From assembly GCF_019722725.1 (NCBI RefSeq), contig NZ_CP077941.1:1116001-1180000 (forward strand): a stretch of 64,000 nt of DNA, given 5' to 3'. The DNA comes from Vreelandella profundi. GTDB taxonomy: Bacteria > Pseudomonadota > Gammaproteobacteria > Pseudomonadales > Halomonadaceae. The translations under genes were made by a program, and so were the position numbers. Below, piece after piece: positions 32,219-51,911 of this stretch. Within the stretch, counting starts at the first letter, position 1. Each line of letters opens with the position of its first letter. The notes below the pieces were generated by a model. It saw nothing but the letters and a program-made list of their open reading frames with translations. It was not told where the DNA came from and searched no databases.

Positions 32219-33034
32219 ATGGAAAACATAAACGCTCAGCCTACGCCACGGCGTGCCCGCACGCCGTGGCAGGTAACACGGAGTGTGTGGTACGCCATGT
32301 TTATGCGCGAAGCCATTTCGCGCACTATGTCCGACCGCATGGGTTGGTTCTGGATGATTTTCGAGCCAGTAGCTTTTGTAGCTATCATGGTGGGGATTCG
32401 TAGTTTTATTCGCGGTGATAGGTTAGTCGTTAATGCTGAGTTTATCCCTTGGCTTATTGCTGGCTTGATGGGGTTCCTGTTAGTCCGAGAAGGAATGCTA
32501 CGAGGAATGGGTGCAATCGAAGCCAACAGTGCGCTATTTGCGTATCGTCAAGTTCAGCCCATCGACCCAGTATTAGTGCGCAACTTTTTGGAAGGCATGC
32601 TGCGCAGCTTTGTTTTCTTAATTTTTATTGTGGGTGGCCTAATGATCGGGCTGGATATGTATCCCGATAATGCCATTCGCGCCATGGGAGCTTGGCTATC
32701 GCTTTGGAGCTTAGGTATTGGCCTAGGGTTAGTCACTTCGGTATCTGCGACACTGGTTCCCGAAGTAGGCAGAGTAATACGCATGCTTTCTTTGCCGTTG
32801 TTAATTCTATCTGGCGTCATATTTCCACTCAACAACCTTCCACACTGGTTGCTGGAATACATAATGCTTAATCCAATACCCCATGCCTTGGAAACATTGC
32901 GCTTAGGCTTTTTCGAGAAGTACCAACCCATCCACGGAACCAGCATGCTGTATTTTTGGTTGGTAACGCTTAGCCTAAATGCTCTGGGAATTCTTATGCA
33001 CTTACGTTTTGTTGATCGGTTAAAGGCCAAATAA
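32219..33034 (+). CDS. kpsM: Capsule ABC exporter permease KpsM
   Basis: 271 residues, ABC-2 type permease with six predicted transmembrane helices. The N-terminal MFMREAISRTMSDRMGWFW segment and the central LEGMLRSFVFLIF and C-terminal NPIPHALETLRLGFF regions follow the KpsM/CtrC pattern. With KpsT it exports lipid-linked capsule polymer across the inner membrane. kpsE follows after three bases. Confidence 0.95.
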   Translation: MENINAQPTPRRARTPWQVTRSVWYAMFMREAISRTMSDRMGWFWMIFEPVAFVAIMVGIRSFIRGDRLVVNAEFIPWLIAGLMGFLLVREGMLRGMGAIEANSALFAYRQVQPIDPVLVRNFLEGMLRSFVFLIFIVGGLMIGLDMYPDNAIRAMGAWLSLWSLGIGLGLVTSVSATLVPEVGRVIRMLSLPLLILSGVIFPLNNLPHWLLEYIMLNPIPHALETLRLGFFEKYQPIHGTSMLYFWLVTLSLNALGILMHLRFVDRLKAK

Positions 33035-33037: not shown

Positions 33038-34135
33038 ATGCAAGTATCATTGACGCGTTTTGTTAAAAAGTCGCCGCAGTGGGCCGTGGCAATAGCTGCA
33101 ATTTTAATCGTTTCCTTTTACTGGTTTGTTTGGGCGCAGGAACGTTACGTTTCACGCGCCACCGTGGTGTTAGAAAGCCCGCAGGTCGCCACGCCAGAGT
33201 TAAGCCTCTCATCGCTAATGGGTGGTGGCGGTGGTAATACTCATGACTTGCTGCTGTTACGTGAGCATTTACTTTCTGTCGATATGCTCCGCTTACTTGA
33301 TAATCAGCTGGATATTCGTAAGCACTATAGTGAGCATGGCGATATATTCGCTAAACTACGCAGTGCCGATGTGCCTATTGAGGACTTACATAAATACTAC
33401 CTTCGCAGAGTAGAAATAGAACTAGACGAGTATGCGGGCGTATTGAATATCGAAGTTCAGGGCTATACCCCCGAGTTTGCCAATCAGGTGACCACTCTGC
33501 TGCTAGAGGCAGGTGAAGACCACATGAATCAAATGGGCCACCGGTTAGCGGATGAGCAAGTGCGCTTTTTAGAGCAACAGATGGTGCGCCTGGATGAGCG
33601 CTTTAAAGAAACCCGCGCGGCGCTGCTAGAATACCAAAATGAGTTTGGCTTGGTATCGCCCACCGACACTGTCGCAAGCATTAATCAAGTAGTCGCCACA
33701 CTGGAAGCTGACTTGGCGCGCTATCAGGCCCAGCGCAATGCCTTGGCGAGTTTTCAAAGCTCACAATCGCCTGAGTTACGGCAAGTAGAGCGCAATATTA
33801 CCGCGCTGCGCGATCAAATTATTGAGCAGCGTGACCGAATAGCTCAAGCATCTGGCGGGTCTTTAAACAGTGTTTCCGCCGAGTATGAAACGCTAGAGCT
33901 GCAGGCGCAGTTTGCTCAAGAAACTTATTCCAGCGCGCTCGCCGCATTAGAGAACACCCGTTTAGAAGCTGCTCGCCAACTCAAGCAAGTAAGCGTGCTG
34001 CAGAGCCCGTTAATGCCTGAATACCCAACTGAACCCAACCGGCTATACAATAGCAGTGTCTTTGCGATCATCACCATCTTCCTGGCTTTCATTCTTAGCA
34101 TGATGATGATGATCATCAAAGATCACCGCGATTGA
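33038..34135 (+). CDS. kpsE: Capsule export inner-membrane protein KpsE (PCP-3)
   Basis: 365 residues. TM1 at about 16-33 ends in the YVSRATVVLESP start of the periplasmic domain. A long coiled coil (about 170-310) with EYQNEFGLVSP follows, and a C-terminal TM (about 338-358) preceded by PLMPEYPTEPNRLYN, the proline-rich motif of PCP proteins. It spans the periplasm and links KpsMT to the OPX channel. No kinase domain, as expected for ABC-dependent capsules. The next gene, 27 bp on, is unexpectedly a metallo-beta-lactamase-fold protein. Confidence 0.93.
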   Translation: MQVSLTRFVKKSPQWAVAIAAILIVSFYWFVWAQERYVSRATVVLESPQVATPELSLSSLMGGGGGNTHDLLLLREHLLSVDMLRLLDNQLDIRKHYSEHGDIFAKLRSADVPIEDLHKYYLRRVEIELDEYAGVLNIEVQGYTPEFANQVTTLLLEAGEDHMNQMGHRLADEQVRFLEQQMVRLDERFKETRAALLEYQNEFGLVSPTDTVASINQVVATLEADLARYQAQRNALASFQSSQSPELRQVERNITALRDQIIEQRDRIAQASGGSLNSVSAEYETLELQAQFAQETYSSALAALENTRLEAARQLKQVSVLQSPLMPEYPTEPNRLYNSSVFAIITIFLAFILSMMMMIIKDHRD

Positions 34136-34162: not shown

Positions 34163-35596
34163 ATGCTTGATATCATCCACCACGGTGGCGCCACCGGTGT
34201 CACGGGTAGTTGTCATCAACTGCTGCTCAATCGCCATGAATCACTATTGGTAGATTGTGGACTTTTCCAGGGTGAAGATGCCGCCGAAGACAGCTTTGAG
34301 CAGCTACAAATTGAATTCGATATCAGCACGGTCAAAGCGCTGGTCATCACCCACGTTCATATCGATCACGTGGGACGGCTGCCTTACTTGCTGGCAGCAG
34401 GCTTTACCGGGCCTATCATCTGCTCCATACCTACCGCTAAACTATTGCCGCTAGTCATTGAAGATGCGTTAAAAATTGGCTTTACTCGCAAGGAGCAGCT
34501 GATTGAGCGCTTTCAAGCTCAGCCCGACAAGCAAATTGTTAGTGTTCCTTACGGTCAGTGGTACAGCTTAGATTTAATAAGCAACGAAAGCGGTAATGCT
34601 TGTATTAACTCTAAAAGTGACTATCTGGCTACAACTCGTGTAAAACTCAAACGAGCTGGGCACATTTTAGGCTCCAGTTTCTTCGAAGTAAGTTACCAAG
34701 ATGTTACAGCTGGCAAGAAAAAGCGTGTTATATTTTCTGGTGACCTGGGCGCCCATTATGCTCCGTTACTGGCTGCGCCCAAGTCACCCTACGGTTGTGA
34801 CCAGCTGATCCTTGAAAGCACCTACGGTAACCATCTTCATCCAGACCGCCGACAGCGCCGCGATACCTTAAAAGCCGCTGTGGAGCACGCTCTGGCTAAC
34901 GGCGGCACGGTGATGGTGCCAGCTTTTAGTATTGGCCGAACGCAGGAACTGCTTTACGAGCTGGAAACCATCATTCATCAGGCGCGCTCACCCCAGTGGA
35001 AGTCACTCGAAATCATTGTCGACTCACCACTAGCCGCACGCTTTACTCAGGTTTACCGCGAGCTAAAACCCTATTGGAATAAAGAAGCCCAGTGCCGCCT
35101 GCGCAGAGGCCGACATCCGCTCAACTTTGCCAATCTATATACCGTCGATAGCCACGCTGAGCACGAACAAACCGTTGAGTACTTGGCCAAAACTGGCCGC
35201 CCAGCGGTAGTGATTGCCGCCAGCGGTATGTGCGCAGGCGGCCGCATCATGAATTATTTAAAAGCCATGCTGAGTGATGAACGCCACCAAGTACTGTTCG
35301 TAGGTTATCAAGGTGCAGGCACCCCTGGGCGAACCATTCAGCAATATGGCCCGCAGGGTGGGTGGGTTGAAATTGACGGTCAGCGTCTTGATATTAAAGC
35401 AGGCGTTACCTCCATTAGCGGTTACTCCGCCCATGCGGATCAAAAAAATTTGCTCAACTTCGTAAAGCGGATGCATCGCTGGCCGCGCATCATACGCCTC
35501 GTGCACGGTGACCAAAACGCCCGCACTGCGCTTAAATACAAACTCGAAAGTCTATACCAGCGTAAAGGCAAGCACGTAAACATTGCTAATGGTTAG
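34163..35596 (+). CDS. Metallo-beta-lactamase/beta-CASP fold protein (RNA-processing exonuclease-like)
   Basis: 477 residues. The HxHxDH zinc motif is intact (His64, His66, Asp68, His69), with SGDLGAHY as a later metal ligand region. The beta-CASP insertion (about 200-330) and C-terminal RNA-specificity region follow: ASGMCAGGRIMNYL, GYQGAGTPGRTI, and SGYSAHADQ with its conserved His. Such proteins process RNA in archaea and eukaryotes (CPSF73-like) and occur in bacteria with less-known roles. It sits between kpsE and kpsT in a run of closely spaced genes, which is not the standard kps content. A role in capsule mRNA handling or simple insertion into the operon is equally possible. Confidence 0.88.
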   Translation: MLDIIHHGGATGVTGSCHQLLLNRHESLLVDCGLFQGEDAAEDSFEQLQIEFDISTVKALVITHVHIDHVGRLPYLLAAGFTGPIICSIPTAKLLPLVIEDALKIGFTRKEQLIERFQAQPDKQIVSVPYGQWYSLDLISNESGNACINSKSDYLATTRVKLKRAGHILGSSFFEVSYQDVTAGKKKRVIFSGDLGAHYAPLLAAPKSPYGCDQLILESTYGNHLHPDRRQRRDTLKAAVEHALANGGTVMVPAFSIGRTQELLYELETIIHQARSPQWKSLEIIVDSPLAARFTQVYRELKPYWNKEAQCRLRRGRHPLNFANLYTVDSHAEHEQTVEYLAKTGRPAVVIAASGMCAGGRIMNYLKAMLSDERHQVLFVGYQGAGTPGRTIQQYGPQGGWVEIDGQRLDIKAGVTSISGYSAHADQKNLLNFVKRMHRWPRIIRLVHGDQNARTALKYKLESLYQRKGKHVNIANG

Positions 35597-35637: not shown

Positions 35638-36750
35638 ATGATTGAAATTCGTAATCTCTACAAGCGTTACCACAATCACCACGGTAGCGATTGGGTACTT
35701 AAAGATATTAACCTCACGATTCCTAGAGGTGTAAGTGTCGGTTTAATTGGTCCTAATGGGGCCGGTAAGTCAACGTTATTGCGTCTTATCGCAGGTATGG
35801 ATTCACCCGACCGAGGAGAAGTGATTCGTCACAGCCGCGTTTCCTGGCCGGTTGGGCTATCGGGGGGAATGCAAGGCAATATGACCGGGCGCCAGAACGT
35901 TAAATTTGTAGCACGCGCCCAGGGAAGTGGCTCCCCAGAGGTAAAGCGTATCATTGAGTTTGTTGAAGAGTTCGCAGAAATAGGTGAAGCCTTTGATGAG
36001 CCCATTCGCACCTATTCTTCCGGCATGCGTTCAAGAATTTCGTTCGGTCTTTCGTTAGCATTTGACTTTGATGTTTACATTTCTGATGAGGCCACTGCAG
36101 TAGGTGACCGCTCCTTCAAAGCAAAGGCGAAAGAGTTATTTAAAAGTAAAGTAGGTAAGGCTTCCCTCATTATGGTATCGCATGGTGAAGGGATACTTCG
36201 TGATCTTTGTCAGGCAGGTATTTATCTTAAGCACGGTGGTGCCTATTGGTACGATGATGTCAATGAAGCAATAGCGACTTATCATGGCGATGTTGATCAT
36301 CTTTCGGGCTTAGAGCTAACAACCGGCTCACTGGCCGATGTTGATGTTCAGCAGTTGACCAAGGAACAACTGCGTGCGGTAAGGGAAGAGCATAAACGAA
36401 CCAAGCAATACATGAATGGGCTTGGGGTAATGGCAAAGCTTGCTCAGCAGCAACGGTGGGAAAAATATGAGGTTGAAGTATTAAAGTCTACACATCTTGA
36501 AGTGCGCAGAGCGCTCAACGGTTTGACCGAGGTCATTCAGCAAAGCCATGAAAGCCAAGTCAATCGCGCTAATGCAGAAATAAAAAAATTTCAAAACTCA
36601 ATTATGGCATATAAATTAAATATTAAAGAAGCTGAAAATAATAATCTGGATGTTCAGGAAAAACAGGTTCTTGAAAAAGCACTAAATGAAGCACAAAAAC
36701 AATTAGCCATAGCAGAATCAGCATTAGAGGAACTCGAAGGTGACGATTAA
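35638..36750 (+). CDS. kpsT: Capsule ABC exporter ATPase KpsT with a C-terminal coiled-coil extension
   Basis: 370 residues against about 220 for E. coli KpsT. The ATPase core occupies about 1-215: Walker A GPNGAGKST (38-46), signature YSSGMRSRISFG, Walker B-like DVYISDEATAVGD and the switch His in MVSHGEG. Residues about 230-370 form a Gln/Glu/Lys-rich helical tail with strong coiled-coil character that ordinary KpsT lacks. In the O-antigen exporter Wzt, C-terminal additions read the polymer, but those are beta-sandwiches, not coils. The tail may dock polymer-synthesising enzymes; that is inference. Confidence 0.92.
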   Translation: MIEIRNLYKRYHNHHGSDWVLKDINLTIPRGVSVGLIGPNGAGKSTLLRLIAGMDSPDRGEVIRHSRVSWPVGLSGGMQGNMTGRQNVKFVARAQGSGSPEVKRIIEFVEEFAEIGEAFDEPIRTYSSGMRSRISFGLSLAFDFDVYISDEATAVGDRSFKAKAKELFKSKVGKASLIMVSHGEGILRDLCQAGIYLKHGGAYWYDDVNEAIATYHGDVDHLSGLELTTGSLADVDVQQLTKEQLRAVREEHKRTKQYMNGLGVMAKLAQQQRWEKYEVEVLKSTHLEVRRALNGLTEVIQQSHESQVNRANAEIKKFQNSIMAYKLNIKEAENNNLDVQEKQVLEKALNEAQKQLAIAESALEELEGDD

Positions 36751-36812: not shown

Positions 36813-37274
36813 ATGGCTAAGACGATTATCACTTATGGCACGTTCGATATGTTTCATGTCGGGCACTTGAACTTATTAAAGCGTCTTAATGAAATGGCGG
36901 ATAATGTAATCGTTGCCGTTTCCACTGATGAATTCAATGAAGGAAAAGGAAAAAAAACACTGATCCCTTACGACCAACGAGCTTCGATTGTTGAGTCGAT
37001 TAAATATGTGCACAAAGTTATTCCTGAAAACTCTTGGGAACAAAAGCTTTCCGATGTGAAAGAACATGATGTTGATATTTTTGCTATCGGCAATGACTGG
37101 AAGGGAAAATTTGATTTTCTTTCTGAGCTTTGTGAAGTGGTTTACTTGGATCGTACTAAAAATATATCGACCACAGACCTTAAAAAATCGCTCACCCGAT
37201 TTCTTTCTATTCCCCATAAAGATTTAATGAAGGCATTTGAAGCGCTAGAAATGCTGCGCAGAGACCTGGAGTAA
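36813..37274 (+). CDS. Glycerol-3-phosphate cytidylyltransferase-like protein (TagD family)
   Basis: 153 residues, slightly longer than Bacillus TagD (129). TYGTFDMFHVGHLNLL carries the HxGH catalytic motif. RTKNISTTDLKKSL matches the RTEGISTT motif of cytidylyltransferases. It should make CDP-glycerol, or a related CDP-polyol, from the polyol phosphate and CTP. ATG 36813 is chosen as the family N-terminus; an in-frame ATG six codons upstream has no support. The genes after it encode LicD-like and TagF-like transferases, a coherent set for a phosphodiester-linked capsule. Confidence 0.88.
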   Translation: MAKTIITYGTFDMFHVGHLNLLKRLNEMADNVIVAVSTDEFNEGKGKKTLIPYDQRASIVESIKYVHKVIPENSWEQKLSDVKEHDVDIFAIGNDWKGKFDFLSELCEVVYLDRTKNISTTDLKKSLTRFLSIPHKDLMKAFEALEMLRRDLE

Positions 37275-37282
37275 CCCTCTGC

Positions 37283-38557
37283 ATGGAAAAAGCAACGTGG
37301 GCAAAGCGAGAGCCAAAAGTGCTTCGTGTTTCGAAAGGGCTGGTAACTCCTCAGCGTTGGACGAATCGCGCGCCCCAGCGCATTGAGCGTTTGTTTTGTC
37401 AAGCACGCCATGAAGAGCTGCGCGACTATTGCGAGTTGCTGGTGCATCGCAGTGATGCTAGTCACAATAAAACGGTAGATAGCATTGCCGCTAAAGCTCT
37501 TTTTTTCCATGCAAGAAGCCATTATTACCAAGGGCAGTGGCAAGCCGTATCCGAATCGTTGAAAAAACTCTTCCACTATTTGCCTAACCACGCAGATGCA
37601 CACTATTTGGCCGCTGATAATGCCCGGATGGCGGGTGATACCGTTGCGGCCAGAGATTATTTAGAAGCTCTATACCCTAAAAGTAAGCGCTTAAAAACCT
37701 GGCTATATATGGCAGAGCTGGTGCAAACGCCAGACGACTGGAAGCGTATGCAGCGCTGTATTAAGCACGCTCTTCAGCTCAAGAAAATACCAGAGTTTAA
37801 CCCCAGCCTGAACGACTATTTCGCTAAAGGCGCTCAGCGTGGGGGCGATTTTACCGTCGCAAAATCTTATTGGCGTCAGAATCTTAAGGACGCAATACAG
37901 AATTCTGAGTCTTTTAGGGTTCGCAGCAGGAAAGTGAATTTTTCGGTACTCGAAGCAAGCCAAGCATTAACGGATATTAAGGCAGCCTTAAGTCTAGCGG
38001 GAATTCCCATGTTTTTGGTAAGTGGTACTCTGTTGGGATGCATGCGTGAAGGCGGCTTATTAGGTCACGATCACGATATTGATATAGGTATATGGGACGA
38101 TATTAATCCCCAGAAATTGATAGAGATAATATCCCAGGCTGGCGTGTTTCACCTATTGCCCCAGCGCTATTCAGGCTGCCTACGGGTGAAACACATCAAT
38201 AGCACAGCTATTGATGTGTTCACTCACTATCGCGAACGGCATACGTACTGGCACGGCGGGGGTAAAGTCAGGTGGCACAATAGCGCTTTTACGCTAAAGC
38301 AGCATAAATTTCTTGCACAATACTATTTCGTTCCTGAAGATCACGACACATATTTGACGGAAAACTATGGTGAGTGGCGCATATCACAGCACACCTTCGA
38401 CTCAACGTTGGATACCCCAAATGCTGAAGTGCTTTGTGAAGAGGAATTAATTCTTCACGTCTATCAGCAATGCTATAAAGCCGTTGTTAATAATCGCGCT
38501 AACCAAATTGAACGTTACAGAACCTTGCTGGCTTCCTTGGGTGAGCAATCTATTTAA
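37283..38557 (+). CDS. LicD/fukutin-like phosphotransferase with N-terminal TPR-like region
   Basis: 424 residues. The N-terminal part (about 40-215) is helical and reads as degenerate tetratricopeptide-like repeats (HADAHYLAADNARMAGDTVA, LYMAELVQTPDDW). The C-terminal part has SGTLLGCMREGG and the DxDxD motif (Asp263, 265, 267) of the LicD/fukutin nucleotidyltransferase-fold family, whose members attach phosphocholine, ribitol-P or glycerol-P to glycans. It is paralogous to the next gene (both have HGG-KxxW-NSxFTL and VPEDxxxYLTENYG). Probably transfers or initiates a polyol phosphate on the capsule; exact substrate unknown. Confidence 0.8.
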   Translation: MEKATWAKREPKVLRVSKGLVTPQRWTNRAPQRIERLFCQARHEELRDYCELLVHRSDASHNKTVDSIAAKALFFHARSHYYQGQWQAVSESLKKLFHYLPNHADAHYLAADNARMAGDTVAARDYLEALYPKSKRLKTWLYMAELVQTPDDWKRMQRCIKHALQLKKIPEFNPSLNDYFAKGAQRGGDFTVAKSYWRQNLKDAIQNSESFRVRSRKVNFSVLEASQALTDIKAALSLAGIPMFLVSGTLLGCMREGGLLGHDHDIDIGIWDDINPQKLIEIISQAGVFHLLPQRYSGCLRVKHINSTAIDVFTHYRERHTYWHGGGKVRWHNSAFTLKQHKFLAQYYFVPEDHDTYLTENYGEWRISQHTFDSTLDTPNAEVLCEEELILHVYQQCYKAVVNNRANQIERYRTLLASLGEQSI

Positions 38558-38592
38558 TGCTATGAACTCAACAGACACTCGAAAGGACTCCA

Positions 38593-39903
38593 ATGAACCC
38601 TGTCGTTTACCGAAAGCTAAAGAAGCTGATAACCAAGCCAAGGCTCTATTTTGAAGATGCAAAATTAAACAAGCAGTCTTTTAATTTTAAAAAAATATCT
38701 GAAGAGTTAATTAAAGCCGAGATGTTTTTTGAAAAAGGGGAAATTGATAAAGCCAAAGCTTTGGCGGAAAATATACCTCGTTCTTCTCAATTAGGGGCTC
38801 TTTTTTTAGCAAAAATAGCATTGTTTGAAAAGCAATATGCTCAGTCAGAACAGGATGCCTTTCAAGTGATGCAACTTTTAAGCCCGTATAGCGCTGAGTT
38901 TAAAAAGGCCTTTTATTTGCATCAAGAGGCACTTCGTTGGCAACACCAATACGATTCTGCCCTAACCATGATCGAAAACATGCCATTTAAAGACAATGCT
39001 TCTCGATATTATAGAGCATTAAGGCTTGCTTGCTTGGGTGCTAATGCCCCAGCCAAATTTGAAAGACAGCTTATTAGGCTTACATCAAATCATAAGGAAT
39101 GGCTAAGGGCACGTAATCACTACATTATGCTGCTGCGAGATTTAGGTAAAGAGCAGCGCGCACTAATTGAGGCAAACCGATTAGTGCAGGAGATATTGCG
39201 CCAGCCTAAGGGTAAACCAAAATCACCCTGTCAGCGTACAGAATCCCAAAAAGTACAGTGGCAAGCAAAGGCAGCCACTGCACTCTTACAGTTAAAGCAG
39301 GATTTAAACAAACATGATATTGAGTTCTTTCTGGTAAGCGGTACTTTATTAGGTTGTGTACGAGAAGGCAGAATACTGGGCCACGATACCGATATAGATG
39401 TAGGGGTTCTTCCTCAGACATCTATGAAACAATTAAGACAAGCCCTTAGTGAGTCGTCGCGTTTCAAGTTTCTTGAAGTGTTTAGTGAAAATACTCTGTA
39501 TGTCGAGCACGCTAATGGCGTACATGTCGATATATTTCGTCACTATGAACAGGATGGAAAGCTTTATCACGGCGGTATTAAATGCCAGTGGTGGAATTCT
39601 CCATTTACACTCTTACCTCAAGTTTTTTTGGGGGAACAGTATCTAGTTCCCGAGGACACCAATAAATATCTCACCGAAAATTATGGAGACTGGCAAACTC
39701 CGGTCACAGATTTTGCTACTTTTTTAGATACGCCAAATATGGAAATAAATAATCCGGCCAACATGGCCCTATATTACGCCACACAAATTATAACGGCTTA
39801 TCGCCAAAGTGAAGTCGAAAAATACCAACGTTATCAATGTTTTTTTAAAGCGTTAATGACAAAACTTACGAAGAATATTCGCTTAGACACAAGCGAAAAG
39901 TAG
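38593..39903 (+). CDS. LicD/fukutin-like phosphotransferase, paralogue of the preceding gene
   Basis: 436 residues. The N-terminus carries KLKKLITKPRLYFEDA, a motif shared with the KpsC-like protein at 48665 and known from other capsule enzymes. A helical repeat region (about 30-225) follows, then the catalytic SGTLLGCVREGR and DxDxD (Asp265, 267, 269). The C-terminal half matches the preceding protein closely, so the pair arose by duplication and may add different residues or act as initiating and decorating enzymes. AAGGA lies upstream of ATG. AT content is high, as in the whole 36.8-44.6 kb stretch. Confidence 0.8.
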   Translation: MNPVVYRKLKKLITKPRLYFEDAKLNKQSFNFKKISEELIKAEMFFEKGEIDKAKALAENIPRSSQLGALFLAKIALFEKQYAQSEQDAFQVMQLLSPYSAEFKKAFYLHQEALRWQHQYDSALTMIENMPFKDNASRYYRALRLACLGANAPAKFERQLIRLTSNHKEWLRARNHYIMLLRDLGKEQRALIEANRLVQEILRQPKGKPKSPCQRTESQKVQWQAKAATALLQLKQDLNKHDIEFFLVSGTLLGCVREGRILGHDTDIDVGVLPQTSMKQLRQALSESSRFKFLEVFSENTLYVEHANGVHVDIFRHYEQDGKLYHGGIKCQWWNSPFTLLPQVFLGEQYLVPEDTNKYLTENYGDWQTPVTDFATFLDTPNMEINNPANMALYYATQIITAYRQSEVEKYQRYQCFFKALMTKLTKNIRLDTSEK

Positions 39904-39915
39904 GAACCTAAAAAT

Positions 39916-42726
39916 ATGACATCATCATTCGATTCTATGGTTACAACATTAAAAGGCTGGCTGCCGCTTAAAAATCCACCTAGCTATACGTTAGGGCTTC
40001 AGTTTTTTCGCAAAAAGGCTTGGAAAACAGCTCAGCAGCATTTTCAAAAAGCTGTACGAGAGAGGCCTAAGCATCCGGCCAGTCATTTTAAGCTAGGAAT
40101 GTGTTATTTTCATCAATTTGATTATACAAAGGCGAGCCGCTCTATCAGCAAGGCCGTGGCGCTTGCACCTGAACAAGTGCAATGGCAAGAACAACAGCAG
40201 CAAGTTAAGAATAAATTAAAAAAAATCAATAAGCCGAAAGTTTCTGAAAATAAAGTTATTGCTAATACCAGTGAGCCCCAAGCCTTATTGACTGTCATTC
40301 AATTAGCAGCGTTGAATGCTGAATATCACAAAGTAGTTGACCTATCCCGTTGGGTTGAAGAGCTGCTTGGAGCCTCTAAAGCACATAGTATTAGTCTTAA
40401 AAAAATACGACATTTCGCCTGCGAAAGTGCTTTAATGAGTGGTGATTTAAACGTTTTTGAAGAATCCTTATTACGGTTGGATGAGCAAGATTCGGCTAGA
40501 TATCGATATAGTGCTATCGCAAACTATTATCGAGGCAACCTGCAGAAGGCTATTGATGAGTTTCAGTTATTGATCACCGTATCAAATAGTCCCGATGTTA
40601 TTTATTGGTATTCTAAAGTTCTGGTGGCAAATGGTGATAAGCAGCTTGCTTGGCAGTTATTAGAAAATGTCGCTCGAAAAAGCCGTCGTGCCGCTACTTG
40701 GCAACACCTTGCTGATCTAGTGGATACTCTTCCCCAGCTACAGCAGTACTTAATGTTATTAGATGAGTGGTGCGTTAAAAGCTCCACAGCACGGCACCAT
40801 CGTGACGTAGCTGTGGCAACGTCAAAAGCAGCCATTGCGGGCGGAAACGGGGCCTTAGCTCGCAAAGTCCTTCACGACAGCATTGAGTATCATCAAAAAC
40901 GTCAAGGAGGGCCAAGCTCCGTATTGCCTGACGATGTAAAGAACGTCCAGGATGCTGGAACACCCATATGGGTAACGCCCTTTGCCTCAGTACCCTATAT
41001 TGCATTGAAGAGCAGCCGATCAGCTCGGGCAAAAGAGTGCTTACAATCGCTAATGGCGGTCGCGAGTAAAACTGCGAGCACACCCATTGCGTTGCAGTAC
41101 ACGCTTCAGTGGATGCTCAATGATCTACGCAGTGATGCTCCTGCCACGCTTCTGTTTGGTGTCGAGGCGACAGAAAGCCTAGAGTCTTTTTTCGAGTCTC
41201 TAGTTAATCAGACTTTTTTTATTCAACAGCACCGAGAAAAAAATAGGTTGGAGCTAAGCCACACGAACGGGTTAAGTGTCACAATTGTTGTGTTTGAGTC
41301 GGAGGGAGGTCTCGAAAAATATCATGAGCATGGTGCTACCTATACTCATGCAGTGCTGGAAGCGTCTGTGTTTGAAACGCAAGATTTGAAGTGTTATGTG
41401 CCAAAAGAGATTGGTATATATTTCAGTGAAAGCGGCATTGATCAAAACCGCTTAACCGAAGAGTGGTTGTTGATATCTGAAAATAAAACTAAGGTTGATG
41501 AAGATGTATATACAGCGCATGCTTACAAGGTTTGGCTATACGCACTGATTAATCAATCAAGTGAATTAGAAGGCCAAGCGGTGCGCGCGCTACGCAAAAG
41601 CAATGAGCATAAGCAGCCTTATCAGCGTCAACTCCAAAGCTATACTATTCCTGATGCTGAAACTATCCGCCGCGATGGCGTTAAAGTTGTCCTATATGTT
41701 AGTGGCCTTGAAAAAGTGGGCTATCAAGCTAATATGTGGATTCCTGTTCTGGAACGATTAAGCAAGCCAGCTGCGATTGTTGTGCGTGAGAAGCGCATAG
41801 CAGAAGAGTTGATTTCTACACAATTACCTATTTATTTTATGAGGACAATGCGTGACGTTGAGTGTTTAGAAGAAGCTGATGTTGAAACTATTTTATATCC
41901 TGCTAATACACAAAAAAATATTCACACGCTGCGTTTTCATCGTATGCAACACTATTTTATTAACCACGGCGAAAGCGATAAAGTAGTTAATCAAAGTAAG
42001 TTTTTAATGGCCTATGATAAATTATTAGTTGCTGGCCCACTGGCTGAGCGCAGGCTCAGAGAAGCTGGGTTGCCTCTACGTGATAATCAAGTGGTGCACG
42101 TGGGTCGCCCCCAAGTTGAGCTGCTGTTAGATAGGGTAGATAGCCCATGTGTTGATATTAAAACAATACTCTATGCCCCTACATGGGAAGGCTTTGTGGA
42201 AGAGGCAAATTATTCATCAGTTAGCGAGTTTGGCTACAATTTACTCAAGAGACTCGCTGCAAGTGAAAGTCTTGAAGTTTTATTCAAACCTCATCCTTAT
42301 ACTGGTTACAATAAAAATGATAATAAAGGTTACTATCTGAAAGAGATGATTGCTCTATGCAATAGCAAAGATAATTTGCATTATATTGACTCATCTGAAG
42401 GCATACATAAGTATATGAATCAGTCAGACATGCTGATCACAGATATATCAAGCGTGCTGAATGATTATTTATATACGCAGAAACCACTCGCCTTATGTAA
42501 TGTTCAATGCCTTAGTCTTGAGGAGATGAAGCAACAGTTTCCGTCGTCGAAGGCTGCTTATGTTTTAAACGATAGTGATGAAATTATACCCACTTTAGAG
42601 GGGATGATTGATGGCGATGAGAAATTTAATGATCGAAATTTAACACGTGCAGACTCTTTAGGTAGTTTCAATGAGGGGTATATGCGTCGCTTTGATGATG
42701 TAGTTACAGATCGTAATGAGGTTTAA
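39916..42726 (+). CDS. Large TPR protein with C-terminal CDP-glycerol glycerophosphotransferase (TagF-like) domain
   Basis: 936 residues. The N-terminal region (about 20-330) has TPR-like repeats (AQQHFQKAVRERPKHPASHF). A middle part of unknown fold (about 350-580) follows. The C-terminal GT-B region from about 585 carries NHGESDK (His684), LYAPTWEGF, KPHP (His793) and SDMLITDISSVLNDY, the landmarks of TagF/TagB glycerol-phosphate transferases. It would polymerise or add a polyol-phosphate from the CDP-donor made by the TagD-like enzyme. Similar TagF-like capsule polymerases are known in Actinobacillus and Neisseria. Overlaps the next gene's first ATG. Confidence 0.85.
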   Translation: MTSSFDSMVTTLKGWLPLKNPPSYTLGLQFFRKKAWKTAQQHFQKAVRERPKHPASHFKLGMCYFHQFDYTKASRSISKAVALAPEQVQWQEQQQQVKNKLKKINKPKVSENKVIANTSEPQALLTVIQLAALNAEYHKVVDLSRWVEELLGASKAHSISLKKIRHFACESALMSGDLNVFEESLLRLDEQDSARYRYSAIANYYRGNLQKAIDEFQLLITVSNSPDVIYWYSKVLVANGDKQLAWQLLENVARKSRRAATWQHLADLVDTLPQLQQYLMLLDEWCVKSSTARHHRDVAVATSKAAIAGGNGALARKVLHDSIEYHQKRQGGPSSVLPDDVKNVQDAGTPIWVTPFASVPYIALKSSRSARAKECLQSLMAVASKTASTPIALQYTLQWMLNDLRSDAPATLLFGVEATESLESFFESLVNQTFFIQQHREKNRLELSHTNGLSVTIVVFESEGGLEKYHEHGATYTHAVLEASVFETQDLKCYVPKEIGIYFSESGIDQNRLTEEWLLISENKTKVDEDVYTAHAYKVWLYALINQSSELEGQAVRALRKSNEHKQPYQRQLQSYTIPDAETIRRDGVKVVLYVSGLEKVGYQANMWIPVLERLSKPAAIVVREKRIAEELISTQLPIYFMRTMRDVECLEEADVETILYPANTQKNIHTLRFHRMQHYFINHGESDKVVNQSKFLMAYDKLLVAGPLAERRLREAGLPLRDNQVVHVGRPQVELLLDRVDSPCVDIKTILYAPTWEGFVEEANYSSVSEFGYNLLKRLAASESLEVLFKPHPYTGYNKNDNKGYYLKEMIALCNSKDNLHYIDSSEGIHKYMNQSDMLITDISSVLNDYLYTQKPLALCNVQCLSLEEMKQQFPSSKAAYVLNDSDEIIPTLEGMIDGDEKFNDRNLTRADSLGSFNEGYMRRFDDVVTDRNEV

Positions 42727-42727
42727 A

Positions 42728-44575
42728 ATGTCTTTAGTAACAGTTGCTATCACTGGCTATAATATCAGTGAATATGTGGAAACCGCTATTGATTCGATTT
42801 TGAATCAAACCTATAAAAATTTAGAAATAGTTTTTGTGGATGATGGTTCCAAAGATGACACCTTCAGAAAGGCTTGCCAACTTTTACAAGCTTATTCAAA
42901 GCGAGTGTTAGTTGCGCAGTATAATAAGGCAGCGGGGGGAGCTAGAAATACGGCAATTAATGTTTCAACTGGAAAGTACATTGTATTTCTCGATGGTGAT
43001 GATTGGCTAGCCCCCGGTGCCGTTCAGGATTTAGTTGCTACTGCTGCTAAAAAACCTGTTCAAGCTGTATTTAGCGATAGAAACACTTACTATGATAAGA
43101 CTGGAGTCTCAAAGCCGTCTATCCTTTTCAAGGAAAGAGTAGGTGTTGATATTAAAAAAATTCCTTATATTAAGAAGAGGATAGCTATCCATGGAAAACT
43201 TTTTGATAGAAAGTTCTTAGTTGATAATAATGTTTTCTTTCCAGAGAATATGAGTGTTGAAGATTTTGTTTTCTCATATGATTTTTTGGCTAAGGCTAGC
43301 TCGGTTTCTACTTTGCCAGTAGCAACTTATTTTTATAGAAAAAGGCAAGGAGGTAATAAGTCTTTAACTCAAGATAGACTTACGGAGTTCTCATTAACTA
43401 GTCGCTTTAAGCAAATTGAGATGACCCAAAAGATAGCTGCTACAGAAGGATTTAAAGAAAAATATCCTAATGTAAATGAGATGAAAACAAATTTTCAACA
43501 CCGATTGATGCGACACATTGTTTGTTTGCCAAAAGAGCAGAATGTTGATTTGAAAGATAACGCTTTTGCTCTCATCAAGAAGTTTGTGAGTAAAAATGAG
43601 GAAGATATTTTTCAGAATGTAAGTGCAGGATGTGCTGAGGTTTATTCTGAAATATTATGTGCCTCTCAAAAAGTTGCATTAATTGCTATAGATAATTATG
43701 TAAAAAAAAGAATTCAGACTTCTAAACCACTGTTGAATTCTCTTCCAAAAAGTAAAGTTGGCGTTATTAATTTATTCTATTGGGATAAGAAGAAAAATTT
43801 TGGCGATAAAATTGGACCTTTTTTGGTGAAGCAGGCATCTGGTCGGCTAGTGCAAAATGTATTTCAGCAGCCAGATGAGGATCATGGATTATTAGTGGTT
43901 GGTTCGATAATTGGTATGCTAGACCGGCCGGGTCTTGATATTTGGGGGAGTGGCTTAATCCGACCTCTTTCTAAATCAAAAGCAGCTGAGTTAGCAAAGT
44001 TTGAACCTAGAATGATTTTGGCTGTACGTGGTTACAAGACCTATTCTGAATTGCGTCAAAAGCTTGGCTGGGATGTGCCTCGTGTATTTGGCGATCCTGC
44101 GTTACTGCTACCTAATTATCTTTCTAAGAATAAGAATAAATCGAAAACTTTAGGTAAAGTGTGCATGGTTCCACATTATAGCCATGCTTCACTCTTTAGT
44201 CATCTGCCAGAAAGTGAAAATCTTTCTGTTTTGAGTGTTAAAGATGATCCGCTAAGTGTAGTGAATGATATTGCCACATCAAAGGTATGTATATCTACTT
44301 CCTTACACGGCATCATTGTTGCACACGCATATGGTGTGCCATGGGTATGGTTGCGCATTGCTGACAAAGTCTTAGTTGGAGATGCATTTAAGTTTGAGGA
44401 CTTTTTTACTGTTTTGAATGCTGGTGCAGTTGCAACCTGCGATGTAAAAGAGGAACAAGCTTTATTGTTGTCTGAGTTAGAAATTTTAAAGTTGGCAGAA
44501 AAAGCAAATTTGCCGAAGAATAAATTCGATTTCACGGATTTGGATGATGCGTTGAAGAACTATATAAATTCGTGA
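42728..44575 (+). CDS. GT2 glycosyltransferase fused to a polysaccharide pyruvyltransferase-like domain
   Basis: 615 residues. The N-terminal GT2 domain (about 1-230) has VTVAITGYNISEYVETAIDS, VDDGSKDDT and the FLDGDDW Asp motif. The C-terminal domain (about 335-600) has NFGDKIGPFLVKQASG and STSLHGIIVAHAYGVPW, typical of the polysaccharide pyruvyltransferase family, which adds ketal pyruvate to sugars. The fusion would couple sugar addition and pyruvylation. The start at 42728 is preferred (GAGG six bases upstream) over ATG 42716, which overlaps the previous gene. Last gene before a 444-bp gap. The GT donor is unknown. Confidence 0.85.
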   Translation: MSLVTVAITGYNISEYVETAIDSILNQTYKNLEIVFVDDGSKDDTFRKACQLLQAYSKRVLVAQYNKAAGGARNTAINVSTGKYIVFLDGDDWLAPGAVQDLVATAAKKPVQAVFSDRNTYYDKTGVSKPSILFKERVGVDIKKIPYIKKRIAIHGKLFDRKFLVDNNVFFPENMSVEDFVFSYDFLAKASSVSTLPVATYFYRKRQGGNKSLTQDRLTEFSLTSRFKQIEMTQKIAATEGFKEKYPNVNEMKTNFQHRLMRHIVCLPKEQNVDLKDNAFALIKKFVSKNEEDIFQNVSAGCAEVYSEILCASQKVALIAIDNYVKKRIQTSKPLLNSLPKSKVGVINLFYWDKKKNFGDKIGPFLVKQASGRLVQNVFQQPDEDHGLLVVGSIIGMLDRPGLDIWGSGLIRPLSKSKAAELAKFEPRMILAVRGYKTYSELRQKLGWDVPRVFGDPALLLPNYLSKNKNKSKTLGKVCMVPHYSHASLFSHLPESENLSVLSVKDDPLSVVNDIATSKVCISTSLHGIIVAHAYGVPWVWLRIADKVLVGDAFKFEDFFTVLNAGAVATCDVKEEQALLLSELEILKLAEKANLPKNKFDFTDLDDALKNYINS

Positions 44576-45019
44576 ATTTTGTTGTTTCTTTGGTTTTGCT
44601 TAGAGCCGGACTAATAATAGCGCCCATTTTTTTCAGCTTGGTTGGTATTTGGTGGTAGTGTAACAGTGCTGATTGATTCGTTATTTATGCCTGCTAATTA
44701 GATTGCATGTAGTGTGAATTTGCCAAATAGAGGCTTGATTATCGAGTGGTGGATATATGCTTATAATGGAAGGTGGAGGCTGCTGTACAGGAATTTGAAC
44801 TCATTAGATAATCGATGTCTTTATAGTCAAGCTTGAGCAATGTTAGCAGCCGAAATTTACGGATTTACCTGTCATTATCCGCCATGGTTGGCCTTGGATA
44901 AGAAGATAGCTGGGCATTAAGATACTTTCTTGCATCTAGTTGTCATTACATTGTCGCATTCTTTTGGGCGGAATAAGCCAGCTATTATGCTGGTTTTTTT
45001 ATTACGGGAAATTCATTGG
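44576..45019. other. Intergenic region before kpsC, with a terminator-like hairpin
   Basis: No gene recognised. It holds a degenerate ops-like GGTGGTAGTGTA (44651-44662; two non-conservative differences from ops, low weight) and ends in a repeat unit (44941-45000) also found upstream of the second KpsC-like gene. No clear promoter. Confidence 0.45.
44975..45000 (+). terminator. Terminator-like hairpin just upstream of kpsC
   Basis: CCAGC / GCTGG (44978-44982 with 44989-44993), extendable through G-T and A-T pairs to about 8 bp, loop TATTAT, then seven T. It ends 20 bases before the chosen kpsC start, leaving no room for a promoter after it, so transcription must read through. Confidence 0.65.
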
Positions 45020-47101
45020 GTGTTTATTGCAACCTCTAAACCGATAGCTGAATCACCGGTGACTACTCTTTTGCTTGGAGGGGAGTGTTGCTGGAAAAAG
45101 CGCTGGCCCCGATTTCGTCGAGTGCAGGCGGTTGTTGGCTGGGGTGCTAAGCCCAGCGGGCAGCGGGCTGAGGCGTGGGCGCTGAAGTACAGGGTGCCAT
45201 GTTGGCATCTTGAAGATGGCTTTTTACGCTCTTATTTGCCTGGTCACTCATCGGTGGGATTGTCCCTAGTAGTGGATGAACAGGGTATCTACTACGATGC
45301 CACCCGTCCTTCTGATCTTGAATCACTTCTGGCGTCTAATGCCGATCTACTGAGTGGCCTGGAAGACAAAGTGGCTCTAGCCCGTTCTTTGATCACCACA
45401 CATGAATTAAGTAAGTACAACCATGCGCCCACCTTTAAGACTTCGGACTTGTCTAGCCAAGATGAAGAGCGGGTGTTGGTGGTTGATCAAACCTTTGGTG
45501 ATCTTAGCGTGATGCTTGGGTTGGCAGATATTGAAACGTTTGACCTGATGGTTGAAACGGCTTTGGCTGAGAACCCGCATGCGACTATTTATATTAAGAC
45601 GCATCCTGAGGTAAGCAGCGGCAGTAAGACGGGTTTTTTGTCGGCGTGGCCTGTGCATCCTCGAGTCGTCATGCTACGTGATGCGGCCAACCCTATCAGC
45701 CTCTTAAAGCATATGAGCCGTGTCTATGTGGTTAGCTCTACGTTGGGATTTGAGGCGTTATTGGCAGGTAAGCCCGTTACTGTTTTCGGTATGCCTTGGT
45801 ATGCCGGGTGGGGATCGACTGATGATCGCCAAATCTGTGAGCGTCGAAATCGCCAGCGTTCAGTAGCGGAACTTTTTGCTGCGGGCTATTTTCACTATAC
45901 CCGCTACGTAAACCCAGAAACTCATGACCCAGGCAGTATATTTGATGTAATCAGGTGGCTAATTCGGCAGAAAGAGTCTGAAACGAGCGTTACTGGGCGT
46001 AGAGTGGCTGTTGGATTAAACGCTTGGAAGGCTGTGAACCTAGCGCCTTTACTAAGTTTGTCAGCTCATCGCCTTCATTTTGTACCAAATGTGGAAGAGG
46101 CTCGCGCGTTAAACCTTACCCAGAGAGACAGCCTGTTGGCCTGGGGGCGAGATGCTCCTGAGGGTGTGAAAGAACTGTCAGATGAAACCGGTGCGAGACG
46201 CTGGCGGATCGAGGATGGATTTATACGATCGGTTGGGCTGGGGGCGCATATGGTGCAGCCTCTTTCCTTAGTGTTGGATGGTCAGGGTATCTACTTTGAT
46301 CCATCTGAACCTTCTGATCTTGAAGCTTTGCTGGCAGCCATCGACTGTTCCGAAGAGGAGCTATCAAGTGCTCGGTTGGCTCGTCATATCATCGTTCGTG
46401 AGGGGCTGACTAAGTATAACGTTGATCCGCGGGCGAAGCCTCAATGGGCAGGCCAGGCGCGGGAGGTTGTCTTTGTTCCAGGCCAGGTGGAGGACGATGC
46501 CTCTATTCGTTATGGCACTTCAACGATCAGTACCAATCTTGGCTTGCTGCAGGCAGCTCGTAAAGCTCACCCTGATTCCTATGTCGTTTACAAGCCGCAT
46601 CCGGATGTCATGTTTGCGATGCGTCAGGGCAATCTGGCGGATGCCAAGCAGTGGGCTGACTATATAGAAACCAAGTGTTCGGTTGTGAGTTGTTTGGAGC
46701 ATTGCGATGTGGTCCACACCATGACGTCATTAACCGGCTTTGATGCGCTGTTGCGAGGTAAGAAAGTGGTCACCTACGGTGAGCCTTTTTATGCAGGCTG
46801 GGGGTTGACCGAAGATCGCGTCCAGAGTGGTAAAGCGCTGAACCGGAGGCAGCGGAAGTTGACGTTAGATGAGCTGGTAGTGGGTGCATTGCTGCGCTAT
46901 CCGCGGTATTGGGATCCTGTCATGAAAGGATTTACCACCTGTGAGTCTGTTCTTCGGCAGATCATTGCTCAGCGTAATGCGTTGGAAATAACGGGCAAAT
47001 TAGGGAATAAAAAATTGAGCTTTTGGCGGCGTAAATGGCGTAAAAAACAGATACTCAAGAGTGCGCGTTCCAGTGCCGTTAAGCCTGTTGATGTGCATTA
47101 A
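45020..47101 (+). CDS. kpsC: Capsule beta-Kdo transferase KpsC
   Basis: About 693 residues (E. coli KpsC 675). There are two tandem Capsule_synth modules. The N-module has GWGAKPSGQRA, EDGFLRS, VLVVDQTFGDLSV and a TSSLGFEAL-like segment (VSSTLGFEALLAGKPVTV). The C-module has EDGFIRSVGLG, PGQVEDDASIRYGT, YKPHPDV and GKKVVTYGEPFYAGWG. KpsC builds the poly-beta-Kdo linker on lysophosphatidylglycerol with KpsS. The start is uncertain: GTG 45020 matches E. coli in length and avoids placing the hairpin inside the gene. ATG 44987 or TTG 44930 are in-frame alternatives without a good SD. Confidence 0.88.
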   Translation: MFIATSKPIAESPVTTLLLGGECCWKKRWPRFRRVQAVVGWGAKPSGQRAEAWALKYRVPCWHLEDGFLRSYLPGHSSVGLSLVVDEQGIYYDATRPSDLESLLASNADLLSGLEDKVALARSLITTHELSKYNHAPTFKTSDLSSQDEERVLVVDQTFGDLSVMLGLADIETFDLMVETALAENPHATIYIKTHPEVSSGSKTGFLSAWPVHPRVVMLRDAANPISLLKHMSRVYVVSSTLGFEALLAGKPVTVFGMPWYAGWGSTDDRQICERRNRQRSVAELFAAGYFHYTRYVNPETHDPGSIFDVIRWLIRQKESETSVTGRRVAVGLNAWKAVNLAPLLSLSAHRLHFVPNVEEARALNLTQRDSLLAWGRDAPEGVKELSDETGARRWRIEDGFIRSVGLGAHMVQPLSLVLDGQGIYFDPSEPSDLEALLAAIDCSEEELSSARLARHIIVREGLTKYNVDPRAKPQWAGQAREVVFVPGQVEDDASIRYGTSTISTNLGLLQAARKAHPDSYVVYKPHPDVMFAMRQGNLADAKQWADYIETKCSVVSCLEHCDVVHTMTSLTGFDALLRGKKVVTYGEPFYAGWGLTEDRVQSGKALNRRQRKLTLDELVVGALLRYPRYWDPVMKGFTTCESVLRQIIAQRNALEITGKLGNKKLSFWRRKWRKKQILKSARSSAVKPVDVH

Positions 47102-47185: not shown

Positions 47186-48475
47186 GTGTCTGAGTCACAG
47201 CGCGTTGTTTTAGTTATTCCTGCACGCTATGGTTCCAGCCGTTTGCCGGGTAAACCACTGGCTGACTTACTTGGCAAACCCATGGTGCAGTGGGTATACG
47301 AAAAAGCACAGCAGGTTCCTTCGGCCAGTCAGGTAGTGGTGGCAACCGACGATGGACGTATTGTTGAGGCGGTACGCCGTTTTGGTGGCAACGTTATTTT
47401 GACATCATCTGATCATCCCTCTGGTACCGACCGGTTAGTGGAAGTGATGGAGCAGGTGGATGCCGATGTGTATATCAATCTGCAGGGAGATGAGCCGTTG
47501 GTGCGTCCCGACGACGTGGAGCGATTGGCCCAGGGGATGTTAGCGGATAGCGCAACTGATGTAGGCACTCTTTATCACGCCATCGAGCCTGAGGAAGCGC
47601 AGAATCCCAATGCGGTGAAAGTGGTGCTTGGTCATCAAGGTAATGCGCTATATTTCAGCCGTTCACCCATCCCATATCCACGTGAGCTTGAGCACCACCC
47701 TGGCTATTTTAAGCATGTGGGTGTTTATGCATATAGAAAGGGGGTTTTGAAGGCATATTCTAGCTTGCCGGCCTCGTCACTGGAGCAGACAGAGCAGCTT
47801 GAACAGCTGCGGCTACTTTCGGCGGGAATGCGAATTCGCGGGTTTGAAGTTGAGCCTACCGGCCCCGGCGTTGATACACCAGAATGCCTGCAAAAGGTGC
47901 GCGCCATACTCGCCGGTGAGCCCTACGTTCTTGTCTCTCCATTGGCCCGTATTAAGTTATTGATCACGGATGTGGACGGGGTGCTTACCGACGGTGGTAT
48001 TTATTACGATGCTACCGGTGAGTGCATGAAGAGGTTCCATGTGCGTGATGGGTTGGGAATACGGCTATTGGAAGAGAGTGGTATACGTGTTGCTGTTCTC
48101 TCGGGACGTGATTCAGCTACGCTCCGAAAGCGTGTTGCCGATTTAGGGATAACGCTATGTGCCTTTGGTGTTAAGGATAAAGAGACTGCGTGTTATCGCC
48201 TGATGGAAGAGGCTGGCTTTACAGCGGAACAAACCGCCTGTATTGGAGATGATTCCATTGATCTACCGGCATTTTCAGCCTGTGGGTTATCCTATGCGGT
48301 GGCAGATGCCCCTATTTATGTTAAGCAGCAGGCCTCAGGTGGCGTGCTTACGCTGGCGGGTGGGCAAGGCGCACTGCGGGAACTGGCGGATGCGATTCTG
48401 GTTGCCCACGGTAAGGCCGATGTTTTCAATTCAGCCGTAGGTTTTAATGCGGTGGCGGGAGGCGTGACCCAATAG
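47186..48475 (+). CDS. KdsB-KdsC fusion: CMP-Kdo synthetase plus Kdo-8-P phosphatase
   Basis: 429 residues. Residues about 6-250 are KdsB (VVLVIPARYGSSRLPGKPL, NLQGDEP, YFSRSPIPYPR, KHVGVYAYR, TEQLEQLRLL). Residues about 255-415 are KdsC, a HAD phosphatase (Asp262/Asp264 in TDVDGVLTDGG, CIGDDSIDLPAF). Together they dephosphorylate Kdo-8-P and activate Kdo with CTP, two consecutive steps. Normally these are separate proteins. The GTG start has AAGGAG six bases upstream. It sits between the two KpsC-type genes that would consume CMP-Kdo. Related sialate-type cytidylyltransferases can carry a C-terminal HAD domain. Confidence 0.93.
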   Translation: MSESQRVVLVIPARYGSSRLPGKPLADLLGKPMVQWVYEKAQQVPSASQVVVATDDGRIVEAVRRFGGNVILTSSDHPSGTDRLVEVMEQVDADVYINLQGDEPLVRPDDVERLAQGMLADSATDVGTLYHAIEPEEAQNPNAVKVVLGHQGNALYFSRSPIPYPRELEHHPGYFKHVGVYAYRKGVLKAYSSLPASSLEQTEQLEQLRLLSAGMRIRGFEVEPTGPGVDTPECLQKVRAILAGEPYVLVSPLARIKLLITDVDGVLTDGGIYYDATGECMKRFHVRDGLGIRLLEESGIRVAVLSGRDSATLRKRVADLGITLCAFGVKDKETACYRLMEEAGFTAEQTACIGDDSIDLPAFSACGLSYAVADAPIYVKQQASGGVLTLAGGQGALRELADAILVAHGKADVFNSAVGFNAVAGGVTQ

Positions 48476-48555: not shown

Positions 48556-48664
48556 ATGGATTAAAAAGCACGCGCTTTCTGGCGATAGTCTGGCGAATGA
48601 AGTGGCTGAAATAAGAGGGGCTATCGAGATGGACTGTTCGCTGCCGAAAAAGGGTATTAAGTAC

Positions 48665-51029: not shown

Positions 51030-51911
<882 letters not shown>

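Follow-up and report, generated by a model that had tools for sequence, protein, structure and literature searches.

The enzymes that join the conserved 3-deoxy-D-manno-oct-2-ulosonic acid (Kdo) primer to the variable part of group 2 capsules were first identified in 2024, according to the authors of a study on Actinobacillus pleuropneumoniae types 3 and 7 (PMC11666461). In that system Cps7A adds one glycerol 3-phosphate (Gro3P) to Kdo, Cps7C, built of tetratricopeptide repeats (TPR) and a LicD domain, polymerises Gro3P and needs D247 and D293, and the final polymer is made by Cps7D, whose build is TPR-CgoT-CgaT. The two essential aspartates of type 7 CpsC align with FKRP, and to the knowledge of the same authors no LicD protein had been described as a polyol-phosphate polymerase before CpsC. 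Elongation of poly(Gro3P) was lost when Cps7D was truncated into the TPR; its N-terminal helix bundle alone was dispensable (PMC11666461). A related set of genes was found at positions 36813-44575, on the plus strand, of a 64,000-nucleotide stretch of the Vreelandella profundi genome (the window; contig NZ_CP077941.1, positions 1116001-1180000 of a single-contig genome of 3.64 Mb). With a probability of roughly 0.6, this block makes a glycerol-phosphate-containing capsule or capsule linker within a group 2 kps system. Its TagD-type enzyme, TPR-LicD protein and TPR-TagF protein correspond to the Cps7B/C/D set of A. pleuropneumoniae (PMC11666461). That set of enzyme kinds is already known, and what is new here is a degenerate TPR-LicD copy within the TagF-type protein, a fusion that recurs in other genomes. 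Such a conserved dead LicD part fused to a TagF enzyme provides a natural and testable clue to coupling in polymer-making machines, and the cassette brings teichoic-acid-like capsule genes into the halomonads.

All genes of the block are open reading frames, with strand and coordinates as in a first-pass annotation that a model had made from the sequence alone. The order along the plus strand is KpsD, KpsM, KpsE, a beta-CASP nuclease, KpsT, TagD, LicD1, LicD2, the 936-residue fusion and a protein of a family 2 glycosyltransferase (GT2) and a pyruvyltransferase, continued by KpsC, a KdsB-KdsC fusion, a 787-residue KpsC relative, KdsA, KdsD, an acetyltransferase and Ugd, which confirms the placement of the set between KpsT and KpsC. 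TagD (36813-37274, plus strand, 153 aa) could be assigned to the glycerol-3-phosphate cytidylyltransferases, as had been proposed, by a PF01467 match of 81.7 bits and by matches to enzymes of this kind in the PDB (E = 4e-45 and 7e-45); its translation contains HVGH and ISTT. Five PF01467 matches were found in the genome, and only the one in the capsule locus is this TagD. The LicD and PF04464 families use several cytidine diphosphate (CDP) alcohols. Because TagD lies in the operon, the genome has one strong IspD match (a second, of 41.5 bits, lies in a 462-residue frame) and no choline kinase above the cut-off was found in it, CDP-glycerol is the most evident donor, and TagD would provide it, in the same way as the TagD-type supply of A. 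pleuropneumoniae 3/7 (PMC11666461). The same three observations make a different donor (CDP-ribitol, CDP-choline or a further CDP-alcohol), and with it a ribitol- or choline-phosphate polymer, very improbable, although FKRP does use CDP-ribitol (PMC11666461).

LicD1 (37283-38557) and LicD2 (38593-39903), both on the plus strand, have an N-terminal TPR part and a C-terminal LicD nucleotidyltransferase domain (about 37940-38488 and 39256-39804), the build of the CpsC class. Against PF04991 they scored 24.4 and 33.4 bits (cut-off 22.6) over short parts of the Pfam model. Since this match is partial, the LicD assignment is based on a purpose-built family profile, on the predicted model of LicD2, for which FKRP is the best fold match, and on four invariant aspartates. 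The TPR part of LicD2 is marginal by Pfam (E = 0.1) and was taken from the predicted model. Asp265, Asp267, Asp269 and Asp313 are kept in 52 of 52 rows of separate LicD proteins, aligned from 50 of the 120 listed matches together with LicD1 and LicD2, and the earlier claim of two LicD-like proteins with a DxDxD motif thereby holds. Their equivalence to D247 and D293 of Cps7C, a protein known here from its description, was established by motif. The genome contains two PF04991 matches, both in this locus. Since the CpsC class polymerises Gro3P and LicD1 resembles the TPR-LicD protein of Escherichia coli CFT073 across both TPR and LicD (38% identity over 343 aa, E = 1e-79), LicD1 and LicD2 are likely chain builders, with a predicted role as Gro3P polymerases. 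A recent tandem duplication of the two was rejected, as each groups with its own Salinicola counterpart in a quick tree with long branches; support by the Shimodaira-Hasegawa-like approximate likelihood ratio test (SH-aLRT) was 95 and, for LicD2, 97, the LicD1 set including two long-branch rows.

The same gene order of KpsM, KpsT, TagD-like, TPR-LicD and TagF-type proteins is present in kps region 2 (C_RS17515-C_RS17535) of E. coli CFT073, a strain which we take to be of capsule serotype K2. Besides the likeness of LicD1, the TagD proteins show 44% identity and the TagF-type proteins have an N-terminal module in common. In CFT073, however, the TagF-type protein is 1266 residues long with several TPR-like stretches, and one LicD only is present. 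Purpose-built profiles detected no LicD-like part in the scanned portion of this protein, its C-terminal half lying outside the scan, and no gene beside it is named glycerophosphotransferase, so that a separate CpsA was not seen by name. The first-pass annotation had not recognised the combination of two LicD proteins with a TPR-TagF protein; the TagD/TPR-LicD/TPR-TagF part is a known kind of set, and the second LicD is the unusual one. LicD2 also resembles TPR-LicD proteins of the Neisseria capZB and CszB-CshB kind, those named capZB being 44% identical over 46% in N. weixii and 33% identical over 83% in N. animalis. Homologs of cszA/cszB start region A of N. animalis, and the Neisseria loci differ in having separate CDP-glycerol glycerophosphotransferase genes, with no pseudoLicD fusion mentioned in the available text of the source (PMC6202450). 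With the CpsA-CpsB-CpsC-CpsD system of A. pleuropneumoniae 3/7 the locus further shares PF04464 enzymes, TPR-LicD proteins with equivalent aspartates, the Kdo primer and export by an ATP-binding cassette (ABC) transporter (PMC11666461), while it differs in its two LicD genes and in the GT2-pyruvyltransferase, and no protein of the CpsA type was seen in it.

The third transferase (39916-42726, plus strand, 936 aa) had been described as a TPR-TagF protein. Profile searches, alignment and a predicted model showed instead a fusion of TPR, TPR-pseudoLicD and TagF parts which, unlike CpsD, is without the galactosyltransferase half. It consists of an N-terminal helical module (residues 22-105, 39979-40230), a degenerate LicD domain (residues 360-566, 40993-41613) and a TagF domain (residues 589-936, 41680-42723). 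The best relative is 86% identical and also comes from Vreelandella profundi. In hhalign comparisons, for which each E-value applies to one template, residues 160-566 aligned with residues 33-425 of LicD2, i.e. with TPR and LicD together (probability 100, E = 8e-46), and residues 340-588 aligned with the LicD domain alone (probability 99.8, E = 1.6e-30); controls of the TagF domain against LicD and of residues 340-588 against TPR gave probabilities of 0.4 or less. In the reverse direction, a profile of the degenerate domain retrieved LicD1 (E = 3e-36), the CFT073 LicD (E = 2e-34) and LicD2 (E = 8e-33). Compared by eye, the predicted models of the fusion and LicD2 show the same succession of helices and strands. 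FKRP is absent among the 50 best fold rows for the 936-residue model, a list filled by the TagF domain. The LicD fold of the middle domain is thus predicted from profile homology and this visual agreement.

LicD homology of the middle domain is accompanied by loss of the catalytic aspartates. In an alignment of 29 of the 86 matches of the fusion (the first 31 without P0012 and P0017), no row has the second catalytic aspartate or a complete DxDxD triad; single triad positions retain aspartate in 6, 4 and 4 rows, while the neighbouring His449 and Gly415 are retained in 27 and 25. The degenerate domains form one group of 33 rows with long branches in the LicD tree (SH-aLRT 91), and the simplest history for such a group is one fusion in which catalysis was lost early on. 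The N-terminal module, within the first 105 residues, is a further part. A profile of residues 22-105, built after removal by eye of the 6 of 29 rows that miss this module (Alkalimonas among them), gave 88 bits with the N-terminus of the CFT073 TagF-type protein, 9.5-35 bits with its other stretches and up to 33 bits with a 1511-residue Alkalimonas protein; in a set of 120 database LicD proteins plus those of the window and CFT073, LicD1 was the only further match, with 13.9 bits. The match in Cps3D covers its residues 9-118, approximately the four-helix bundle and long helix described in PMC11666461. Based on these module matches, the fusion can be regarded as a mosaic of a CpsD-like N-terminus, a CpsC-like dead middle and a catalytic TagF end. 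The dead LicD part would most likely serve for docking or for holding the chain, as a subunit built into the fusion through which the TagF domain is coupled to the active LicD proteins. The further idea that the fusion is a conserved scaffold enzyme, whose dead LicD docks LicD1 and LicD2 or grips poly(glycerol phosphate) and thereby joins priming and elongation in a single machine, is doubtful at present. A literature search for a TPR-LicD-TagF fusion, which left subscription journals mostly outside, found no paper, nor did one combining Halomonas and LicD; LicD, TagF and tetratricopeptide together led to PMC11666461.

By sequence the C-terminal domain lies inside the TagF family, as the first-pass annotation had claimed from its histidines, so that the outcome by which that annotation would have failed, a structural placement outside the family, did not arise: residues 709-859 match PF04464 with 52.6 bits (cut-off 22.1), the predicted fold is compatible with glycosyltransferase fold B (GT-B), and His684 and His793 are present in 29 of 29 rows, the window protein included, their equivalence to TagF H444 and H584 being read from the motifs. 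PF04464, a predicted GT-B fold and two catalytic histidines are shared with the wall teichoic acid polymerases TagF and TarL, from which the protein differs in having several fused domains and in belonging to the kps locus of a Gram-negative bacterium. Neither described capsule type fits it completely. CpsD combines a glycerol-phosphate transferase and a glycosyltransferase in one chain, and across the 936 residues Pfam gave no glycosyltransferase domain, GT2 being a separate gene. CpsA, compared by its description, is a PF04464 protein of about 380 aa with tyrosine for the base histidine, whereas the present protein has His684, 936 residues and TPR and LicD-like parts. The TagF domain may have a CpsA-like or a CpsD-like role. 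One view takes the domain as the capsule polymerase, making a poly-polyol-phosphate that the two LicD proteins only decorate. The invariant histidines, the module in common with the CFT073 protein and the fact that this is the sole PF04464 match of the genome fit with it, but the TPR-LicD class is the demonstrated Gro3P polymerase in A. pleuropneumoniae 3/7 (PMC11666461), LicD1 resembles its CFT073 member over TPR and LicD, the glycosyltransferase half of CpsD is missing and Alkalimonas has a separate CpsD-type protein beside its fusion, and we consider this view unlikely. The polyol-phosphate polymer of the first-pass annotation stands in part. The locus is best read as a kps system for a polymer based on CDP-glycerol, and TagF as its polymerase gives way to the CpsC-class LicD proteins.

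The genomic context was read for 19 loci (L009-L027) of 80 fetched, the remaining 61 being nearly all from Streptomyces. The full TPR-pseudoLicD-TagF fusion was present in six: Salinicola, Alkalimonas, Xanthomonas, and Desulfuromonas, Verrucomicrobiaceae and Massilia metagenome-assembled genomes (MAGs). A separate LicD stands beside it in five of the six (not in Alkalimonas), as does TagD (not in Desulfuromonas, a 7-kb contig), and two of these loci, Salinicola and Massilia, have two separate LicD genes. Across all 19 loci a separate LicD was found in 14 (E of 1e-10 or better; some counts are pieces at contig or locus ends, in L011, L013 and L025) and TagD in 13 (E of 1e-20 or better). Salinicola halimionae carries the whole TagD-LicD1-LicD2-fusion cassette in the same order, and the family scores together with this order exclude chance. 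Instead of the GT2-pyruvyltransferase gene it has a Stealth gene directly upstream and an apparent pseudaminic-acid (Pse) set downstream, whose gene names we presume from the starts of the sequences. Plasmids gave one match, to the TagF domain only. In an Opitutus MAG (L026:9914-11995), one protein combines a TagF domain from the same clade with a glycerophosphodiester phosphodiesterase domain (PF03009).

The different partners of the cassette in two genera suggest a narrower form of the preferred explanation, compatible with it, in which the four genes, like CpsA/B/C, make only a poly(glycerol phosphate) linker and other genes make the serotype-specific polymer: the GT2-pyruvyltransferase and 787-residue KpsC-like protein genes here, Stealth and Pse genes in Salinicola. 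CpsA and CpsC being 93 and 96% identical between types 3 and 7 (PMC11666461) would agree with this, as would the clade TagF domains found beside a separate PF04464 protein in 5 of the 19 loci by Pfam (L010, L016, L018, L024, L025) and in a sixth (L017) by a purpose-built profile alone, a profile made from the five loci that it then finds and CFT073; L015 was marginal (23.5 against 22.1 bits) and L012 gave an unclear profile match of 44 bits. On the other hand, the whole cassette could be compared in two loci only, L010 is the only one of the six fusion loci with a confirmed second PF04464 protein, and the window genome has no second PF04464 match. We therefore hold the linker form tentatively, at somewhat less than even odds.

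For the broader reading, a glycerol-phosphate-containing capsule or linker, the following course can be proposed. After synthesis of CDP-glycerol by TagD, whose family is established and whose activity we infer, beta-Kdo would be built on lipid by the KpsC-type enzymes of the locus and by KpsS from a second cluster, genes which are present and whose use here is presumed. The TagF domain of the fusion would transfer glycerol-phosphate to the Kdo primer or to a sugar. LicD1, of the CpsC class, would extend the chain to poly(glycerol-3-phosphate), and LicD2, a distinct paralog, may add a second, different glycerol-phosphate linkage or a branch, while the dead LicD may dock these active proteins or hold the chain. 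The GT2-pyruvyltransferase would then add a sugar carrying pyruvate, and KpsMTED would export the polymer. Since the genome has a single PF04464 match and two PF04991 matches, LicD1, LicD2 and the fusion are the only members of these families available for chain building.

Several points weigh against this course. TagD falls 0.9 bits short of NCBIfam TIGR01518 (164.5 against 165.4), and three of the 29 pseudoLicD rows (P0019, P0025, P0026) retain two of the three triad aspartates. The fold ranking alone does not separate the TagF domain from UDP-GlcNAc (uridine diphosphate N-acetylglucosamine) 2-epimerases, and the domain has NHG(E/D)SD in place of the WHGTP of TagF and retains the base histidine that CpsA lacks. 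The fusion carries the N-terminal module of the CFT073 TagF-type protein, and in Alkalimonas it stands with TagD, a pyruvyltransferase and the 1511-residue TPR/PF04464/GT4 protein of CpsD build, without a separate LicD in the 22 kb searched. Families, residues and gene order were observed, and every reaction of the scheme, like the division of labour among the three transferases, is a proposal made from them.

On the Kdo side, KpsC (44930-47101) is a two-module beta-Kdo transferase with 41% identity to E. coli KpsC over 650 aa, and family matches identified the KdsB-KdsC fusion for CMP-Kdo (cytidine monophosphate-Kdo) synthesis (47186-48475), KdsA (51036-51911, PF00793) and KdsD with SIS and CBS domains (51954-52934), all on the plus strand. 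The 787-residue protein (48602-50965, plus strand) contains two KpsC-like modules that share 56% identity, and each carries the QXXXD and HP motifs which have been described in KpsC (PMC10148158); the motif pattern used is incomplete, as it found nothing in KpsC2. An assignment of this gene as KpsS was rejected, since both of its modules match KpsC and its match to E. coli KpsS is weak. It is a candidate serotype-specific Kdo transferase that could, as a guess, attach Kdo within the capsule proper. In E. coli, the variable regions of loci for capsules that contain Kdo are reported to have no obvious KpsC homologs (PMC12887879). Relatives of 353, 1108, 1136 and 1424 aa occur in kps loci of other family members, with the nucleophile motif found once, twice, once and twice, respectively. 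In the scaffold reading of the fusion, which is doubtful as stated above, the product could be a mixed Kdo, glycerol-phosphate and pyruvylated-sugar capsule to which the two-module KpsC relative contributes; we know of no capsule of this composition.

No KpsS was found in the locus, and among the PF05159 genes of the genome only C1:1193342-1194580 matches E. coli KpsS over its length. It belongs to a second cluster on the minus strand (C1:1182157-1196597, 2-17 kb past the window), which encodes KpsC, KpsS, a short-chain dehydrogenase, a sulfatase-family protein, a polyketide synthase (2483 aa, of which 1639 residues were scanned) and an aminotransferase. The pair of KpsC and KpsS genes in it begins roughly 13 kb after the end of the window and 22 kb after Ugd, and similar pairs are present in five other loci of the family (L112, L114-L117). 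A similar arrangement, with kpsSC and wcb operons, has been reported in Cobetia, where the polymers contain Kdo, pyruvate and sulfate (PMC11766843).

The export genes, all on the plus strand, are KpsD-like (30347-32053, 568 aa, Poly_export and SLBB), KpsM (32219-33034, ABC permease, PF01061, 31% to the CFT073 permease over 249 aa) and KpsT (35638-36750, ABC ATPase with a C-terminal extension, PF00005, 54% to CFT073 KpsT over 219 aa), so that together with KpsC the marks of a kps locus are present. KpsE (33038-34135) is weak and was named by its position, with a GNVR score of 16.8 bits below the cut-off of 27.7; its relatives occupy the equivalent place in other kps loci. Ahead of the operon lies GGCGGTAGCGT (29896-29906, plus strand), which we take to be an ops/JUMPstart-like element. 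It is the sole exact match within the window; with one mismatch allowed there are 4 matches against 1.23 expected, which is weak evidence by itself, and the RNA fold around it showed nothing unusual (z = 0.33). The fusion of GT2 with a PF04230 domain (42716-44575, plus strand; GT2 99.2 bits, PS_pyruv_trans 50.0 bits against a gathering score of 25.3) agrees with the pyruvyltransferase fusion of the first-pass annotation, its C-terminal half being a predicted pyruvyltransferase. A hexapeptide acetyltransferase (52992-53582) and a member of the UDP-glucose/GDP-mannose (guanosine diphosphate mannose) dehydrogenase family, Ugd (53769-54935), both on the plus strand, were assigned by family matches. 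Glycerol in the product, pyruvylation and acetylation, which the annotation had put forward, are inferences from these genes.

The cassette probably is accessory and acquired. Its G+C content is 37-43% in 2-kb windows at 36-45 kb, compared with 45-53% in the flanking kps genes and 50-59% in the first 22 kb; low values also occur at 22-28 kb and 61-64 kb. Of 82 genomes of the genus only its own has a match to the 936-residue protein, and of 250 genomes of the family 8 do, only two of them at full length.

A beta-CASP metallo-nuclease gene (34163-35596) lies between KpsE and KpsT. The NCBIfam model for Cas14 of type VII CRISPR (clustered regularly interspaced short palindromic repeats) gave 315 bits against a cut-off of 800, indicating a relative only. 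A 77% identical gene occupies the same place in one genome of the genus (G117), and none was found in the kps operons of G087, G112 and Salinicola; we know of no reason for an RNase-like gene within a capsule export operon. Directly upstream of kpsD, genes for a GT4-type glycosyltransferase, a bacterial sugar transferase and an O-antigen ligase/Wzy_C protein (22636-29645) perhaps serve a second, Wzy-type polymer; the G+C content at 22-28 kb is 37-45%. At 56831-60223, a phosphoglucose isomerase gene is split in two by an insertion sequence with transposase-type open reading frames on the minus strand (57644-58717 and 58714-59238).

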